Source of the DNA: Natrinema caseinilyticum
Lineage (GTDB): Archaea; Halobacteriota; Halobacteria; Halobacteriales; Natrialbaceae
Length of the DNA: 64,000 bases
Direction of reading: 5' to 3'
Assembly: GCF_024227435.1 (NCBI RefSeq)
Contig: NZ_CP100445.1
Location: 2,849,369 to 2,913,368, forward strand
The translations under genes and the position numbers were made by a program. Positions 1 through 6,778 of this stretch are shown here, piece after piece. The notes below the pieces were generated by a model that ran no database searches, was not told where the DNA came from, and saw nothing but the letters and a program-made list of their open reading frames with translations. Position 1 is the first letter of the stretch. The number at the start of each line of letters is the position of its first letter.

Positions 1-181
1 ACGCAGCGCCACCAGCAGATCCGATCGAGTTTGTTCGCGACCGTGAGTGTCCGAATCGCCGACACTGAGGTTCTTTTTCGCTCGTCGTCGGTGAGAGGTC
101 TATGACCGATACGCATTCGAAGGTACCGAATCCGGGGACCCGCAGTGGCCGTCGACCGTCGATTCACCACCGGATATCACG

Positions 182-784
182 ATGAGCCGAGAGTACGACG
201 AAGAGTGGTTCGTCGTCGACAGCCGAACGAACGCCGTGATCACGTGGGCCGGTACCGGGATTCTCGCCAGCGCGGTAATTGCGTTTCTCTTCGCGGGCTT
301 CGTTGGCGGGGTCGCGTTCGCGGCAGTCGCAACGGCGGTCGCGTCTGTCCCGCCACTGGTTGCACGTTCGTGGACCCACACGCTCCCCTGGCCGCTCCTC
401 GGTATCGCGTCACTGCCGCTCGTACTCGTCCCGCTTCAGCCGACGTTCTTCGGCCAGTTCTTCGTCGGTGTCGGTATCGCAGCGCTCGCGATGCTCGTCG
501 TCAACGCGCTCCAGCTCACGACGTCGCTTCGCATGACGCCCGCCTTCGCCGTGGTCTTCGTCTGTATCGTCACGCTCGCCGTCGCCGGATTCTGGGCGGT
601 CGCCTCGGCGGTCAGCTCGGAATATCTCGGTGGCACGTTCGTCGAGACGAACGACGAACTCATGCTGATCTTCAGCGTCGCGCTCCTTGCCGGGCTCTTC
701 TCGGGTCTCGCTTTCTGGCTGTACTTCCGGCAGCGGCGCCGAAACGCACCTCGATCACCACCACAACGGGTGAAATCGACGTGA
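182..784 (+). CDS. Polytopic membrane protein of unknown function
   Basis: This 200-residue protein has a short acidic N-terminus (about 20 residues), then about six hydrophobic segments spread over residues 20-185, and ends in a basic tail (RQRRR near residue 187). It is therefore an integral membrane protein with a probably cytoplasmic C-terminus. No catalytic motif is visible and I do not recognise the family. Its TGA overlaps the GTG start of the next gene (GTGA), so the two are translationally coupled and probably work together. A tiny frame at 103-185 reaches the ATG in the same overlapping way but is too short to call. Confidence 0.75.
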   Translation: MSREYDEEWFVVDSRTNAVITWAGTGILASAVIAFLFAGFVGGVAFAAVATAVASVPPLVARSWTHTLPWPLLGIASLPLVLVPLQPTFFGQFFVGVGIAALAMLVVNALQLTTSLRMTPAFAVVFVCIVTLAVAGFWAVASAVSSEYLGGTFVETNDELMLIFSVALLAGLFSGLAFWLYFRQRRRNAPRSPPQRVKST

Positions 785-1443
785 CGGTCCGCGAGCGACT
801 GCGGCTCACCCCCGAGCGGGCCGCACTGCTGGTCCGCGTTCTGCAACTCGTCATGATCGCGATTCTCGTCGCCGGAGTCTGGTATGGAAGGCCGGGCGTG
901 GTCGTCAACGGAGGAATCGCCTTGCTCGTCACGCAGCTTCCCGCACTCTTCGAACGCCGCTACGCGTTCACGATGAACGAGATGCTCGTCCTCTGGATCA
1001 CGCTCTCCATGTTTCTCCACGCGTTCGGAACGCTCCCGCTGCCCGGTCTCGATTTCTTGACGCCGTACAAGGCCGTCTGGTGGTGGGATCACGTGACCCA
1101 CACGTTCTCGTCCTCGCTCGTGGCCGCCGTCGGGTATGCCACCGCGCGAGCCCTGGACGTCCACACCGACGCCGTTACGTTCCCGCCGACGTTCATGTTC
1201 GCGTACCTCCTCCTGTTCATGATGGCGTTCGGCGTCGTCTGGGAGCTCCTCGAGTTCTACGTCGGCGTCGTCTCCCAGTTACTCGGGATCCCGGGAATCC
1301 TGACGCAGTACGGGCTCGAAGACACCATCCTCGACCTCGCGTACGACACGGTCGGCGCCCTCCTCGTCGCCACCATCGGAACCGCGTACCTCACCGACGT
1401 TTCGGATCAGTTAGCCGAGCGACTGAGTTCTCGGACTCCCTGA
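781..1443 (+). CDS. DUF2238/YjdF-like membrane protein
   Basis: The protein has 220 residues and about six membrane segments. Three conserved-looking blocks recall the YjdF/DUF2238 family: WWDHVTHTFSS near residue 100, WELLEF near 155, and the GLEDTILDLAYDT block near 180. The buried His, Glu and Asp residues in these blocks could bind a metal or act in catalysis, but the family function is not established. The GTG start at 781 overlaps the upstream stop codon. A longer frame reading further upstream is a shadow of the preceding gene. Family assignment rests on motif memory only. Confidence 0.75.
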   Translation: MTVRERLRLTPERAALLVRVLQLVMIAILVAGVWYGRPGVVVNGGIALLVTQLPALFERRYAFTMNEMLVLWITLSMFLHAFGTLPLPGLDFLTPYKAVWWWDHVTHTFSSSLVAAVGYATARALDVHTDAVTFPPTFMFAYLLLFMMAFGVVWELLEFYVGVVSQLLGIPGILTQYGLEDTILDLAYDTVGALLVATIGTAYLTDVSDQLAERLSSRTP

Positions 1444-1901
1444 CGTGACGGATTCCGCCTCGCGGCACCCTCGTCGGGACCCTGGACGCTGCTCGAGCGT
1501 GTCGGCTCCGACAGTAGACTGTGTCCCCGCCGCGCTCGAGTCTCGAGAAGCGCGGTACCCGAGCCATCCGCCGAAGATACTCGCGTCGACTTTCGAAAGA
1601 TTAACGGCACACATATCTGTATCTAACGGCGGGGTGACGCCCTGCCCCTGGCGGAACAATAGGGCAGTCCGTAGCGGTCGGCGCCGAAGGTTACCGGCAG
1701 AAGGCGCACGACGACCCCGATGCGGCCGAGGACACGGCTGCCGTCGGGGCGCGTCCGAGCCGAAACCAGTCGCCGACAGGTACCGGCCGCCGGACTGTCA
1801 CACAAGAAGCCCCCCGGGGCCACGCGGGACGCCGAGGCTCGGCGACAGGCACCGTGCTGAAGCCGCGTCGAAGAACTCTCGCGGATCCGTTTCGTCCGAC
1901 G
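1444..1901. other. Gene-free region with promoter-like element and strong hairpins
   Basis: No convincing protein is encoded here on either strand. A BRE/TATA-like element lies at 1591-1605 (TTTCGAAAGATTAAC). Downstream are stable inverted repeats. One has a 6-bp stem (1715-1720 with 1744-1749) enclosing a 7-bp stem (1722-1728 with 1735-1741) with a six-base loop. A second is GACAG (1775-1779) with CTGTC (1795-1799) enclosing CCGG/CCGG. A third is CGCCGA (1830-1835) with TCGGCG (1839-1844). The layout would suit a structured non-coding RNA of about 230 nt, but I found no RNase P or SRP RNA signature. Confidence 0.3.
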
Positions 1902-2192
1902 TTACTCCGTTTTCGGCTCGAGTGCGCCGGCGTCGAGTTCTTCGTTGAGAAACGCTCGCCCATCGTCAGTGAGCCGGTAGAGCCCCTGCGCGATCCGATC
2001 GACCAGTCCGTACTCCGTCAGTTTCGAAAGTCGTACGCTGGCGTGACTCCGGGAACAGACGCCGAAGTTCTTGACCGCCTGCGGTGTCAAATTTCCCTCA
2101 TCTCGCATCGTTTCCAGGATGTGCTCGTCGACCGGACGCATCCAGTCGGCCCGTTGTCGTGCCACATCTACGGTGGGTGGGTTCGTAACCAT
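1902..2192 (-). CDS. Small winged-helix transcriptional regulator (PhiH1 repressor-like)
   Basis: This 96-residue single-domain protein has a helix-turn-helix around residues 28-60 (LTPQAVKNFGVCSRSHASVR) and a wing around 62-80 (YGLVDRIAQGLYRLTDDGR). This is the pattern of haloarchaeal phiH1-repressor-like winged-helix proteins that sense whether a target is active. A TATA-like stretch on the minus strand at about 2219-2228 lies 26-36 nt before the ATG, which fits a leaderless transcript. The gene is divergent from the one at 2392 across an AT-rich spacer that carries a palindrome (2258-2270), so it may control both. Confidence 0.8.
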   Translation of the reverse strand: MVTNPPTVDVARQRADWMRPVDEHILETMRDEGNLTPQAVKNFGVCSRSHASVRLSKLTEYGLVDRIAQGLYRLTDDGRAFLNEELDAGALEPKTE

Positions 2193-2257
2193 AGTTTTAC
2201 CGATATGTATGAAATTGATAATAAAACGTCTGAATCTAATATGGAAACGTTGTATTT

Positions 2258-2270
2258 CGATTGCGAATCG
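2258..2270. promoter_or_regulatory. Palindrome CGATT-GCG-AATCG in divergent promoter region
   Basis: A perfect 5-bp inverted repeat with a 3-bp spacer sits in the AT-rich gap between the winged-helix gene (1902-2192) and the gene at 2392. It is just upstream of the TATA-like AAAAATATATG at 2275-2285. The position suits an operator for the divergent winged-helix protein. This is inference from placement and symmetry only. Confidence 0.35.
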
Positions 2271-2391
2271 TTAGAAAAATATATGCGCACGGAGGGAAAC
2301 CTCTCGAGTGGGGCCGACTCCATCGGACCGTCGTGGTCCGACGTGCCACCTGCACGCCGGAGTCGGATCACCACCACAGGAGAGTCCGCTC

Positions 2392-2790
2392 ATGCAACCC
2401 GAACGCTCCGAACCTAAAGACGTTCATTCGCCAACCGAGAGCCGTATCGCCGCCGGTCCCGGCGTCCGCGAGGGCGACGAAGTCGACCGGCCGTCACCGA
2501 CCTCCCCTCGCCGCGACGAAGCGCTCACAGACGGCGGGCGCGACCCCGGATCAATCGAGTCCCGCCCCGAGGAAATCGACAAGCAGGCCGAAATCGTCCT
2601 CGAGTCCGTCGACGACCGGGGCCTCGAGGAGACTGCCAGACGCGCCGTCGAGAGCTACCTCGGGACGATTCGGTTCGAAATCGCGGCCGTGGACCACCTC
2701 CTCGAGTACGGCGCGCCGTCCGACGGTGCAACCGCGTCGGCTGATCGTGAGGGCGACGGCTCGTCGGTCTCGATATCGGATGGCGGGTAG
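2392..2790 (+). CDS. Hypothetical acidic protein
   Basis: This 132-residue protein has a disordered, Pro/Asp/Arg-rich first half and a predicted helical segment around residues 62-105 (EEIDKQAEIVLESVDDRGLEE and following), then a low-complexity acidic tail. No known domain was recognised. The helical core might mediate dimerisation. I chose the ATG at 2392 because AGGAG lies at 2378-2382 with suitable spacing; a GTG at 2308 would extend the frame and sits at leaderless distance from the TATA-like box at 2275-2285. It is divergent from the winged-helix gene. Confidence 0.6.
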   Translation: MQPERSEPKDVHSPTESRIAAGPGVREGDEVDRPSPTSPRRDEALTDGGRDPGSIESRPEEIDKQAEIVLESVDDRGLEETARRAVESYLGTIRFEIAAVDHLLEYGAPSDGATASADREGDGSSVSISDGG

Positions 2791-3020
2791 TCGGCACGCC
2801 CGGCACCCACTGCGGGGACTGTCACTCGCTTTGATACCGGTCGACTGACACCCTCTCACTTTTCGAGGCTCTGAACCCCGTGTTGCGCTGTTTCAAAATG
2901 GCTGATTGTCGCGAAAGCGGTCGTGCGGCGGTGCAGTTCGATTTCCGAACCACAACCACCGTGACCGACAGCGACCCGGGAGCATCCGGGGTTCGCCCGC
3001 TCGGTCACCGTGGACCGCCG

Positions 3021-3380
3021 CTAGTGGTTATCCACCAGCTCCGATTTTTTGATCCAGCACTCGTCGCTATCCGGTCCGGTACAATCCTCGAGTCGAATCC
3101 AGTCGGTTTGCCAGAACGGCCACGTTCCGGTCGTACACTCGTCGATCGGCGTGACGCAGGTCCAGTTCGCCAGACTCCACCCGGTGTCGTTACCACCGCA
3201 GCCGTCGTAGATCGTGGCGGCGTATCCACACCGCTCGTCCGAATCGCAGCCGCCACAGTTCGAGTGGGTGGCTTGCACGGACGACGTCGCGGCGGTCAGT
3301 CCGCTCCCGGCCACGATCGCGCTCCCGGACGACTTCAGCACGTTCCGCCTCTTAATTCGATCGCTATCGGACATCATCAA
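3021..3380 (-). CDS. Tat-exported cysteine-rich miniprotein
   Basis: The protein has up to 119 residues; the start could also be the third Met, at 3374. The N-terminus carries a twin-arginine signal (KRRNVLK at residues 10-16) and a hydrophobic stretch to about residue 37 ending near VQA. The predicted mature part of about 80 residues contains eight cysteines at roughly 42, 45, 51, 61, 75, 82, 100 and 108, plus five tryptophans. It would be exported folded and could form four disulfides. I do not recognise the family. Halocin C8 is also Cys-rich and Tat-exported, but I see no sequence similarity. The gene stands alone between gaps of about 230-270 bp. Confidence 0.75.
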   Translation of the reverse strand: MMMSDSDRIKRRNVLKSSGSAIVAGSGLTAATSSVQATHSNCGGCDSDERCGYAATIYDGCGGNDTGWSLANWTCVTPIDECTTGTWPFWQTDWIRLEDCTGPDSDECWIKKSELVDNH

Positions 3381-3647
3381 CAGTTATAATACACGAAAAT
3401 ATGAATGTGTCCCCTCCTTTCATTTCGTGAATGGAGTCGCAAACCGTCTCGGACTCTTCGGGACAGACGTCCGGCCGATCCGTCGATTCCGCCGCTGAGA
3501 ATAGTCAGCACCGGCGGCGCAACCCAGGCGATGGACCGAAACCCGCGACCGTTTCGACAGTTGGCCGATAGCCGCGGCGACAGCGATCCGCATCGGCGGT
3601 CGCACGAGGGGGACTCGAAGAGAACGGTGGCCGAACGAGAAACGGCG

Positions 3648-5288
3648 TTACTGGTCGGTCATGAGGCGCCGCAGGATGTCGCCGTAGGCGGGCCGGGTGA
3701 TGATGACCCCGATGAACACGCCGAGGATGGTGATGATGGCGAACCCGCGGAGGTCCCCGAGACTCAACACGGCCAGCGGCGAGAGGGCGACGACCGTCGT
3801 CGCGGCGGCCCCGCCGATGACCCAGAACGCTTTGCGGAACCGCGACTGGAATACTCGAGCGGAGCTGACGTCGCCTTCGTCCATCACCTCGTCGGCGATG
3901 ATCACGAGGTCGTCCACGCCGGTCCCGACGACCGCGATGAACCCGGCGACGTGGGACAGATCCAGTGGCATGCGTATCAGCGCGGCGAACCCGAGCAGGA
4001 TCACCACCTCCGACATCGCCGTGACGATCATCGGCAGGGCGACGCGGGTGTCGGTGTAGCGGGCGTAGACGACGCCGCTGACGGTGACGACGGAGAGCAG
4101 GCCGATCAACAGCGAGTACTGCTTGAACTGCTCGGCGTGGGACGGCTCGATCGAGTAGACCTGGCTCCCCTCGAAGTCGAGCGGTGCGCGCAGGCTGCCG
4201 GCCCGGAGGTTGACCGAGAGCGACTGGGCGTCCTGCTGGTTCTGGGCTCCCATCAGGAAGGTTGGATTGTCGGCCCAACTGCCGCTGTCCATCGAACTGG
4301 CCAGACCATCCGACATGCTGTGAGCGTCGACGACCTCTCCGTCGACGACGGTCAGGAGACAGTACTGTTCACCCTCGTGGTCGAAGCTGATTTCATCACT
4401 ATCACCGCGGAGGTTACACATTCGGATCCCCTCGCTGGTGAAGCCCAGATCGTTCAGCTGCTGTTGGAACTCGGGGGCGGCTTCGTCTTTGACCTGGACG
4501 GGGACCTCGTATCCCGATATCGGTTGCCCGTTCGGTCCCGTTGCCTGTTCTGGCGGATCGACGTTCGCGATGTCCTCTCCTGTCAGTACCGTCTCGTTAG
4601 TCTGGTTGGTCTGGTTGCCGCTCTCGTTCGGGTAGTAGGCGACGACCTCGACGACCCCGCGTTCGGAGAGCAGGGTTCGAAGCTCGTCGGACCCCATGTT
4701 CGGCACTTCGACGACGATGTAGTGTTCGTCGTCGAGCGTCGACGCCTCGTAGACCGTGCCGCCGGAGAGTCCCGCCGCGTTGATCTTCGTCTGTATCGTC
4801 TCGATCATCTGCCCGCGGGTCTGCTCGGTGACGCCGTCTCGAATGTCGTCCTCGGTGGCGTCGACGTTCGCCGCCTGCAACGCGGCCGCGAACTCCGCTT
4901 CGGTCACGTTCCCGGTGAACACCTCCGCGGTGACCGTCCCGTCGTCGTGGACGTCGACGCTGGCGTCCGCCTGATCGACGCCGAGTTCCTGATACAGCGT
5001 CGACTCGATCGATTCGAGTCGGTCCTCGTCGACATCGCCGGTGTCGCTGACCGCGTCCGGCGCGATGTCTTCGGCCGTCATCCCGGTGACCGGGACTCTG
5101 ATTCTCGTCCCGCCGTCCAGGCTGAGGCCGAACTCGAGGTTGGTGGGGCCGCTCTCGACGGCGTCTTCGGCGAGGCCGTCGTCGGCGACGATGCCGCCGG
5201 GGACGAACAGCGCCACGACGGCGAAGCCGATGAACAGGACGAGCAGGAGGACCCGCCAGTTGGATTTGATCGTGCCGATCGGGCTCAT
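3648..5288 (-). CDS. secD: Protein translocase subunit SecD
   Basis: SecD works with SecF to drive and complete Sec-dependent protein export at the cell membrane, probably using the ion gradient. The 546-residue protein has one N-terminal membrane segment (about residues 9-31), a large extracytoplasmic region containing the family signature FGLSLDGGTRIRVPV (about 53-67), and five C-terminal membrane helices (about 355-540) with the GTGVDDLVIIADE block of the RND-type permease core. The length suits archaeal SecD. The start overlaps the secF stop by 4 bp (5285-5288), giving a secF-secD operon as in other haloarchaea. Confidence 0.97.
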   Translation of the reverse strand: MSPIGTIKSNWRVLLLVLFIGFAVVALFVPGGIVADDGLAEDAVESGPTNLEFGLSLDGGTRIRVPVTGMTAEDIAPDAVSDTGDVDEDRLESIESTLYQELGVDQADASVDVHDDGTVTAEVFTGNVTEAEFAAALQAANVDATEDDIRDGVTEQTRGQMIETIQTKINAAGLSGGTVYEASTLDDEHYIVVEVPNMGSDELRTLLSERGVVEVVAYYPNESGNQTNQTNETVLTGEDIANVDPPEQATGPNGQPISGYEVPVQVKDEAAPEFQQQLNDLGFTSEGIRMCNLRGDSDEISFDHEGEQYCLLTVVDGEVVDAHSMSDGLASSMDSGSWADNPTFLMGAQNQQDAQSLSVNLRAGSLRAPLDFEGSQVYSIEPSHAEQFKQYSLLIGLLSVVTVSGVVYARYTDTRVALPMIVTAMSEVVILLGFAALIRMPLDLSHVAGFIAVVGTGVDDLVIIADEVMDEGDVSSARVFQSRFRKAFWVIGGAAATTVVALSPLAVLSLGDLRGFAIITILGVFIGVIITRPAYGDILRRLMTDQ

Positions 5289-6304: not shown

Positions 6305-6778
6305 TCAGTCCGGCAGATACCGAACGCTCACCACGCCGTCGTCCGCCGAGCGACGGACTTCCACGCGAACGGCCTCGAGTCGGGCCGCTCGGGCGATCGT
6401 CTCCTCGTCTTCGAGGACGTCCCGAGCCGCGGATTCGACGTCCGATTCGGGGACGCGGAAAACGTGGATCTCGCCGGTTCCGGCCCGTTCTTCCCGGACG
6501 AGGTCGCCGATCTCGGCCTCGCTCGCGAGGTCGGCGGCGTGACGGGTCGGCTCGAGGTCGCTGTCGACGAGATCGATCGAACGCCGGTCCGCGACGTCGA
6601 TCACCTCCCAGGCGACCTCCAGGGGCGGGTCGGGCGCGACGGTGGCCTCGAGAACGTCGCGGACCTCGAGGCCGGGGTTCGACGCGAGGGTGTGGACCTG
6701 TGCGGTGTCGACGTCGCGGACGACCGCCGACTCGCTCTCGGCGTGCGTGACGACGAACGTGCCCGTCTTTTCGCTCAT
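6305..6778 (-). CDS. DUF5812 family protein
   Basis: This 157-residue soluble acidic protein starts with a compact beta-rich part (GTFVVTHAESESAVVRDVD). A central part reads like a small alpha/beta module, and the C-terminus resembles a ferredoxin-like fold (residues about 85-155). The sequence is typical of the haloarchaeal family DUF5812, whose function is unknown. It lies between secF and the beta-propeller lipoprotein, all on the minus strand but with gaps of 73-147 bp, so separate transcription is likely. Confidence 0.8.
   Translation of the reverse strand: MSEKTGTFVVTHAESESAVVRDVDTAQVHTLASNPGLEVRDVLEATVAPDPPLEVAWEVIDVADRRSIDLVDSDLEPTRHAADLASEAEIGDLVREERAGTGEIHVFRVPESDVESAARDVLEDEETIARAARLEAVRVEVRRSADDGVVSVRYLPD

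Follow-up and report, generated by a model that had tools for sequence, protein, structure and literature searches.

In this work we have asked what is made from a short reading frame which follows secF-secD, on their strand, in the genome of Natrinema caseinilyticum. The DNA analysed, called the window below, is a stretch of 64,000 nucleotides on the 3.94-Mb contig of a 4.77-Mb genome. Does this frame belong to a real gene, is its product exported, and what could such a small protein do outside the cell? Our answer, which is tentative and held with less than even confidence, is that the gene encodes a soluble, Tat-released SH3b-like barrel of 82 residues with up to four disulfides, which would act outside the cell as a module that binds a glycan or a peptide.

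The reading frame and its predicted export signal

The listed ORF (3021..3380, minus strand) has a TTG start and 119 aa. Two ATG codons directly follow the TTG at 3380, so that the likely protein has 118 aa and runs from 3377 to 3021; judged from the sequence, translation more probably begins at the ATG at 3377 than at the TTG. The layout of the gene and its product is as follows.

3021..3377, minus strand: CDS of a cysteine-rich miniprotein of 118 aa, predicted to be exported by Tat (ORF listing, sequence, codon score, simulation)
3270..3377, minus strand: signal peptide of 36 aa, ending VQA, with the twin arginine codons at 3345-3350 (sequence, motif rule, weak Pfam TAT_signal match)
3024..3269, minus strand: mature protein of 82 aa with 8 Cys and 6 Trp, predicted to be all-beta and SH3b-like over residues 9-82 (sequence, AlphaFold2 model, structure matches)

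An initial annotation of this DNA had claimed a Tat export signal, and we come to the same reading. The signal consists of the twin-arginine motif KRRNVLK, an uncharged stretch longer than 20 residues and a signal peptidase cleavage site between VQA and T, which are the features of a Tat substrate under the general twin-arginine rule that we coded for this analysis. The predicted Tat export rests on this motif rule, since the curated models match the ORF only below their cut-offs (12.9 bits against 22.7 for Pfam TAT_signal and 16.5 bits against 48.45 for NCBIfam formate_TAT). The signal contains no lipobox cysteine and the protein has no hydrophobic anchor at its C-terminus, so that we expect a free product on the outer side of the membrane. 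The same annotation had counted eight cysteines and five tryptophans in about 80 residues; the cysteines stand, at positions 5, 8, 14, 24, 38, 45, 63 and 71 of the mature part, and the tryptophans number six. The mature part is acidic and hydrophilic by computation, with a pI of 4.05, a mass of 9.1 kDa and a GRAVY of -0.67. By analogy with Tat substrates, it is reasonable to suppose that its eight cysteines would form four disulfides and that the protein would fold before export.

The gene in its locus

How probable is such an ORF by chance? A rule of our own, which combines a Tat-like signal with at least eight Cys in a short ORF, gave one match in the window, this ORF, and none when 40 sequences of 64 kb were simulated with the window's dinucleotide make-up. 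Of the 13882 simulated ORFs with 90 residues or more, 33 were Tat-like, and 0 of these had 8 Cys. Some 82-aa stretch with at least eight Cys occurs in eight ORFs of the window, against a mean of 0.9 in 20 simulations. Because Cys-rich stretches are commoner in the window than in the simulated DNA, Cys richness alone is less telling and it is the pairing with the Tat signal that carries weight. We assume that most Cys-rich open frames of the window are frames which are not translated. Codon usage was scored as well. With +0.24 bits per codon, the frame of the mature part scores higher than the other five. The 27 reference ORFs of the window span 0.06 to 0.63 with a mean of 0.40, so that its value lies within their range and under the mean; over the whole ORF the score is 0.11 bits per codon.

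The surroundings of the gene contain four further features.

3396..3403, minus strand: putative archaeal TATA box (CATATTTT), 19-26 nt upstream of the ATG (read from the sequence)
2956..3013, minus strand: strong hairpin starting 8 nt past the stop codon (inverted repeat, fold z-score)
3648..5288, minus strand: secD, the upstream neighbour, on the strand of the miniprotein gene (Pfam SecD_SecF_C)
2726..3647, no strand: stretch that separates secD from the next conserved DNA and contains the gene (DNA comparison, 28 congeners)

By the usual rule for the distance between an archaeal TATA box and the start, the spacing of the TATA-like element would fit a leaderless transcript. The hairpin, which has 13-nt arms with 92% complementarity and a fold z-score of -2.94, is a possible transcript end. 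For the comparison with 28 congeners, the 1500 bases after secD in each were set against positions 1-3660 of the window. Three of the 28 match, all inside window 1483-2725, and in none of the 28 is there a DNA match to window 2726-3647 at the corresponding place. The conserved DNA starts 196, 211 and 327 bases past secD in the three matching congeners, against about 920 in our species, and the gene therefore sits in some 600-730 extra bases of this species. Could a transposable element have carried these bases in? The 922-bp stretch has no further copy in the genome (there are short matches only, with E 0.02 or worse), its ends carry no terminal repeats, and the arrival of the gene by this route is not supported by the sequence.

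Two observations were made in passing elsewhere in the window. A DUF5812 protein (6305-6778, E 2.5e-59) adjoins secF. The G+C content is 0.49-0.59 in positions 38000-64000 and 0.61-0.67 in the first 38 kb. The ten ORFs scanned in 38000-64000 include three aldehyde dehydrogenases, an enolase-superfamily protein, a DRL-type oxidoreductase and an alcohol dehydrogenase, together with a solute-binding protein, a permease and a fused double ABC ATPase, and judging from its sequence this part is probably an acquired island for uptake and catabolism.

No relative of the miniprotein was found in 61 genomes (60 relatives and its own), in 125 genomes of the family or in 391 genomes of the class, three sets which overlap. 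The searches of genome_contigs and of viral contigs returned 187 and 43 pattern matches, none of which was confirmed as a relative, and plasmids and phages gave no match at E 1. Nor was there a match of weight in Pfam, NCBIfam, PADLOC or the PDB sequences. In other genomes than its own, the lowest E-values were 0.001, reached by the signal peptide in the set of 61, and 0.0036, reached by the mature part in the family and class sets. Sixteen weak matches were read as open frames: three of them (L031, L032 and L035) encode Tat-exported, Trp-rich proteins with no Cys in the mature part, and the other 13 do not have the Tat-plus-Cys layout and look unrelated or out of frame. Among the PHROGs, phrog_2231 (a virus family, 674 positions, function unknown) was matched with E 0.00065, where residues 3-68 align to its positions 122-195. 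We set this kinship aside, as the match spans the signal peptide and the stretch which follows it and is probably compositional. The initial annotation had recognised no known family here, and with the genome, viral, plasmid, phage and family-profile searches all empty we agree. It had also proposed a search for homologues with a comparison of their cysteines; no certain homologue came to light, so there was no Cys conservation to compare.

Is it possible that the frame is a spurious or decaying ORF within a species-specific intergenic stretch? Its occurrence in a single genome, with no relative in any collection searched, and the low codon score of the ORF as a whole would fit this. However, the simulated windows never paired a Tat signal with eight Cys, the frame of the mature part scores above the other five, and the ORF is flanked by the TATA-like element and the hairpin, so that we regard a spurious ORF as quite improbable. 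Our preference, again a tentative one, is that the gene is a real, lineage-restricted orphan; we make this judgement jointly with that on Tat release and an SH3b-like binding module.

Predicted fold and similar exported proteins

AlphaFold2, run with the single sequence of 82 residues, gave one model with a pLDDT of 68 and four with 38-40. The best model is all-beta and ends with a strand, a short helix and a strand. Foldseek ranks four PDB matches to this model highest, all of them weak (E 0.25 to 0.81): an NlpC/P60 protein, NlpC2, YrvJ and, from the S-layer protein SlpA, the domain that binds teichoic acid. The list from VIA-align consists almost throughout of SH3-like barrels, from Z 6.1 downwards, and includes 2krs, 2kt8, 9ovi and 8b2f with Z 5.3-5.8 over 59-61 residues (for 2krs, Z 5.8 over 59 residues at 2.1 Å and 20% identity); by the tool's own warning, a Z near 6 is in the range that possibly reflects only a common arrangement. 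Phage NlpC/P60, lysozyme, SH3 and SH3b proteins are among the BFVD matches. In neither PDB Foldseek nor BFVD did a structure match to the best model fall below E 0.001, and no SH3 family profile of Pfam matched the whole or the mature protein up to E 10. We take the C-terminal half of the miniprotein to resemble SH3b sequences. When the first eight mature residues, which include two Cys, were left out, the best model had a pLDDT of 48 and retained three strands and the short helix, with the C-terminal hairpin and short helix appearing again. From these models, the drop in confidence may mean that the first cysteines are part of the fold, or that the first model arose by luck.

The known proteins which the model calls to mind are the bacterial SH3 domains (SH3b; Pfam SH3_3, PF08239) of NlpC/P60 hydrolases, endolysins and S-layer proteins. 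The likeness lies in the predicted barrel over residues 9-82, in the strand, short helix and strand at its end, in export and in a size of about one domain. Unlike these domains, the miniprotein has no detectable sequence similarity to SH3b and has eight Cys, no enzyme or repeat is attached to it, and the confidence of the model is low. SH3b-like working is thus weakly predicted by the modelling and is best taken as a lead, not as membership of the family.

Do other exported proteins of this kind exist in Natrinema and its relatives? A set of Trp-rich miniproteins (L097-L106, L108 and L121) has a Tat signal followed by a single domain of about 75-85 residues. Their mature domains contain 0, 2 or 4 Cys, with four in L106, from a congener, and two in L121, from another family of the order. 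One of these Trp-rich proteins is matched at E 1e-4 in 11 of the 125 family genomes, where one of the 11 matches, L107, is a longer protein that has mainly the signal in common. A profile built from eight mature parts (A3) has matches at E 0.01 in 9 of the 391 class genomes, and two of its eight rows are matched by Pfam SH3_3 (best E 0.00091), from which it follows that exported one-domain SH3-like proteins exist in the group. The cysteine-rich miniprotein has the layout in common with this set, whereas the Trp-rich proteins have fewer Cys. Homology between the two was not found: hhalign of the mature miniprotein against A3 gave a probability of 0.2%, and A3 has no match at E 0.01 in the miniprotein's own genome. 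In alignment A1 the miniprotein is 28-30% identical to three Trp-rich proteins, signal peptide included; A1 and a further alignment, A2, place the N-terminal half poorly and were left out as evidence of homology.

What the protein may do

We hypothesize that the miniprotein would leave the cell through the Tat pathway and be set free as a soluble domain of 82 residues, an SH3b-like beta barrel which up to four disulfides would hold together. Its ligand, a glycan or a peptide, could belong to the surface of haloarchaea or to material present in the brine, and the tryptophans would form part of the binding face. Of the two roles suggested in the initial annotation, antimicrobial or surface, it is the surface role, in the form of this extracellular binding module, that we favour.

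Many disulfide-rich miniproteins are enzyme inhibitors. An exported inhibitor, for instance of extracellular proteases, would be a general fit to the size, the Cys content and the secretion of the protein. Nevertheless, no inhibitor family was matched in Pfam or NCBIfam and the structure matches point to SH3-like domains, which makes this reading very unlikely.

More could be said for an exported metal-binding miniprotein, in which the CxxC and other Cys would hold a zinc or iron centre. Loading of the metal in the cytoplasm would be a reason for the use of Tat, a CGGC is found near the mature N-terminus and there is a weak match to Pfam Zn_ribbon_16 (PF21957, E 0.06). Yet that match has 13.8 bits against a cut-off of 27, and E 0.52 on the mature part alone. 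There is a single CxxC and the remaining Cys are irregularly spaced. The use of Tat also needs no special reason, as Tat substrates are predicted to make up 39-55% of the proteins that haloarchaea secrete, according to the part of the source drawn on here (PMC2945643). Altogether we consider metal binding quite unlikely.

Could the protein instead be a microhalocin-like antimicrobial peptide, released into the medium? Halocin C8 is Cys-rich, like our miniprotein, and the small size and predicted Tat export of the latter would suit such a role. The excerpted review describes halocin C8 (ProC8) as a Tat-exported protein that is found in Natrinema, and the two are also alike in their small mature part (PMC11509114). 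However, the halocin C8 precursor has 283 aa and includes its own immunity protein (PMC11509114), whereas ours consists, in its 118 aa, of a signal peptide and one domain, with neither a pro-domain nor an immunity domain. All halocins so far described are hydrophobic, in the words of the same excerpts (PMC11509114), and the miniprotein is hydrophilic and acidic. No immunity-like neighbour was recognised among nine neighbouring ORFs scanned, and NCBIfam gave no match of weight. The halocin or antimicrobial role put forward in the initial annotation is therefore not upheld by the acidity, the GRAVY and the short precursor, and we assign it very little probability. A different antagonistic precursor, HFX_0892, acts through alpha-helices, and the main text of that paper contains no mention of SH3, disulfide or cysteine (PMC12893001). 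Our literature search found nothing on disulfides in halocins or in haloarchaeal Tat substrates, nor on SH3 together with a twin-arginine signal in haloarchaea, nor on an archaeal secreted Cys-rich SH3b.

The extracellular binding module, then, is the reading that we carry forward. Perhaps one could go further and see in it a newly arisen or very fast-evolving SH3b-type domain, locked by cysteines, which would be folded and oxidised before Tat export and act as a lone secreted recognition protein, a new archaeal family of disulfide-rich miniproteins with its own cysteine framework; this we think unlikely. To our knowledge, much work has been done on the Cys-rich secreted miniproteins of animals, plants and fungi and hardly any on those of archaea. 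Because the gene is an orphan at the level of the species, it will be of limited general importance until relatives turn up or a function is established. If the four disulfides do form before exit through Tat, the protein would offer a small and well-defined system for the study of oxidative folding in the haloarchaeal cytoplasm. If the proposal is true, it would also be a test case for the use of lone SH3b-like modules as secreted binders by archaea.
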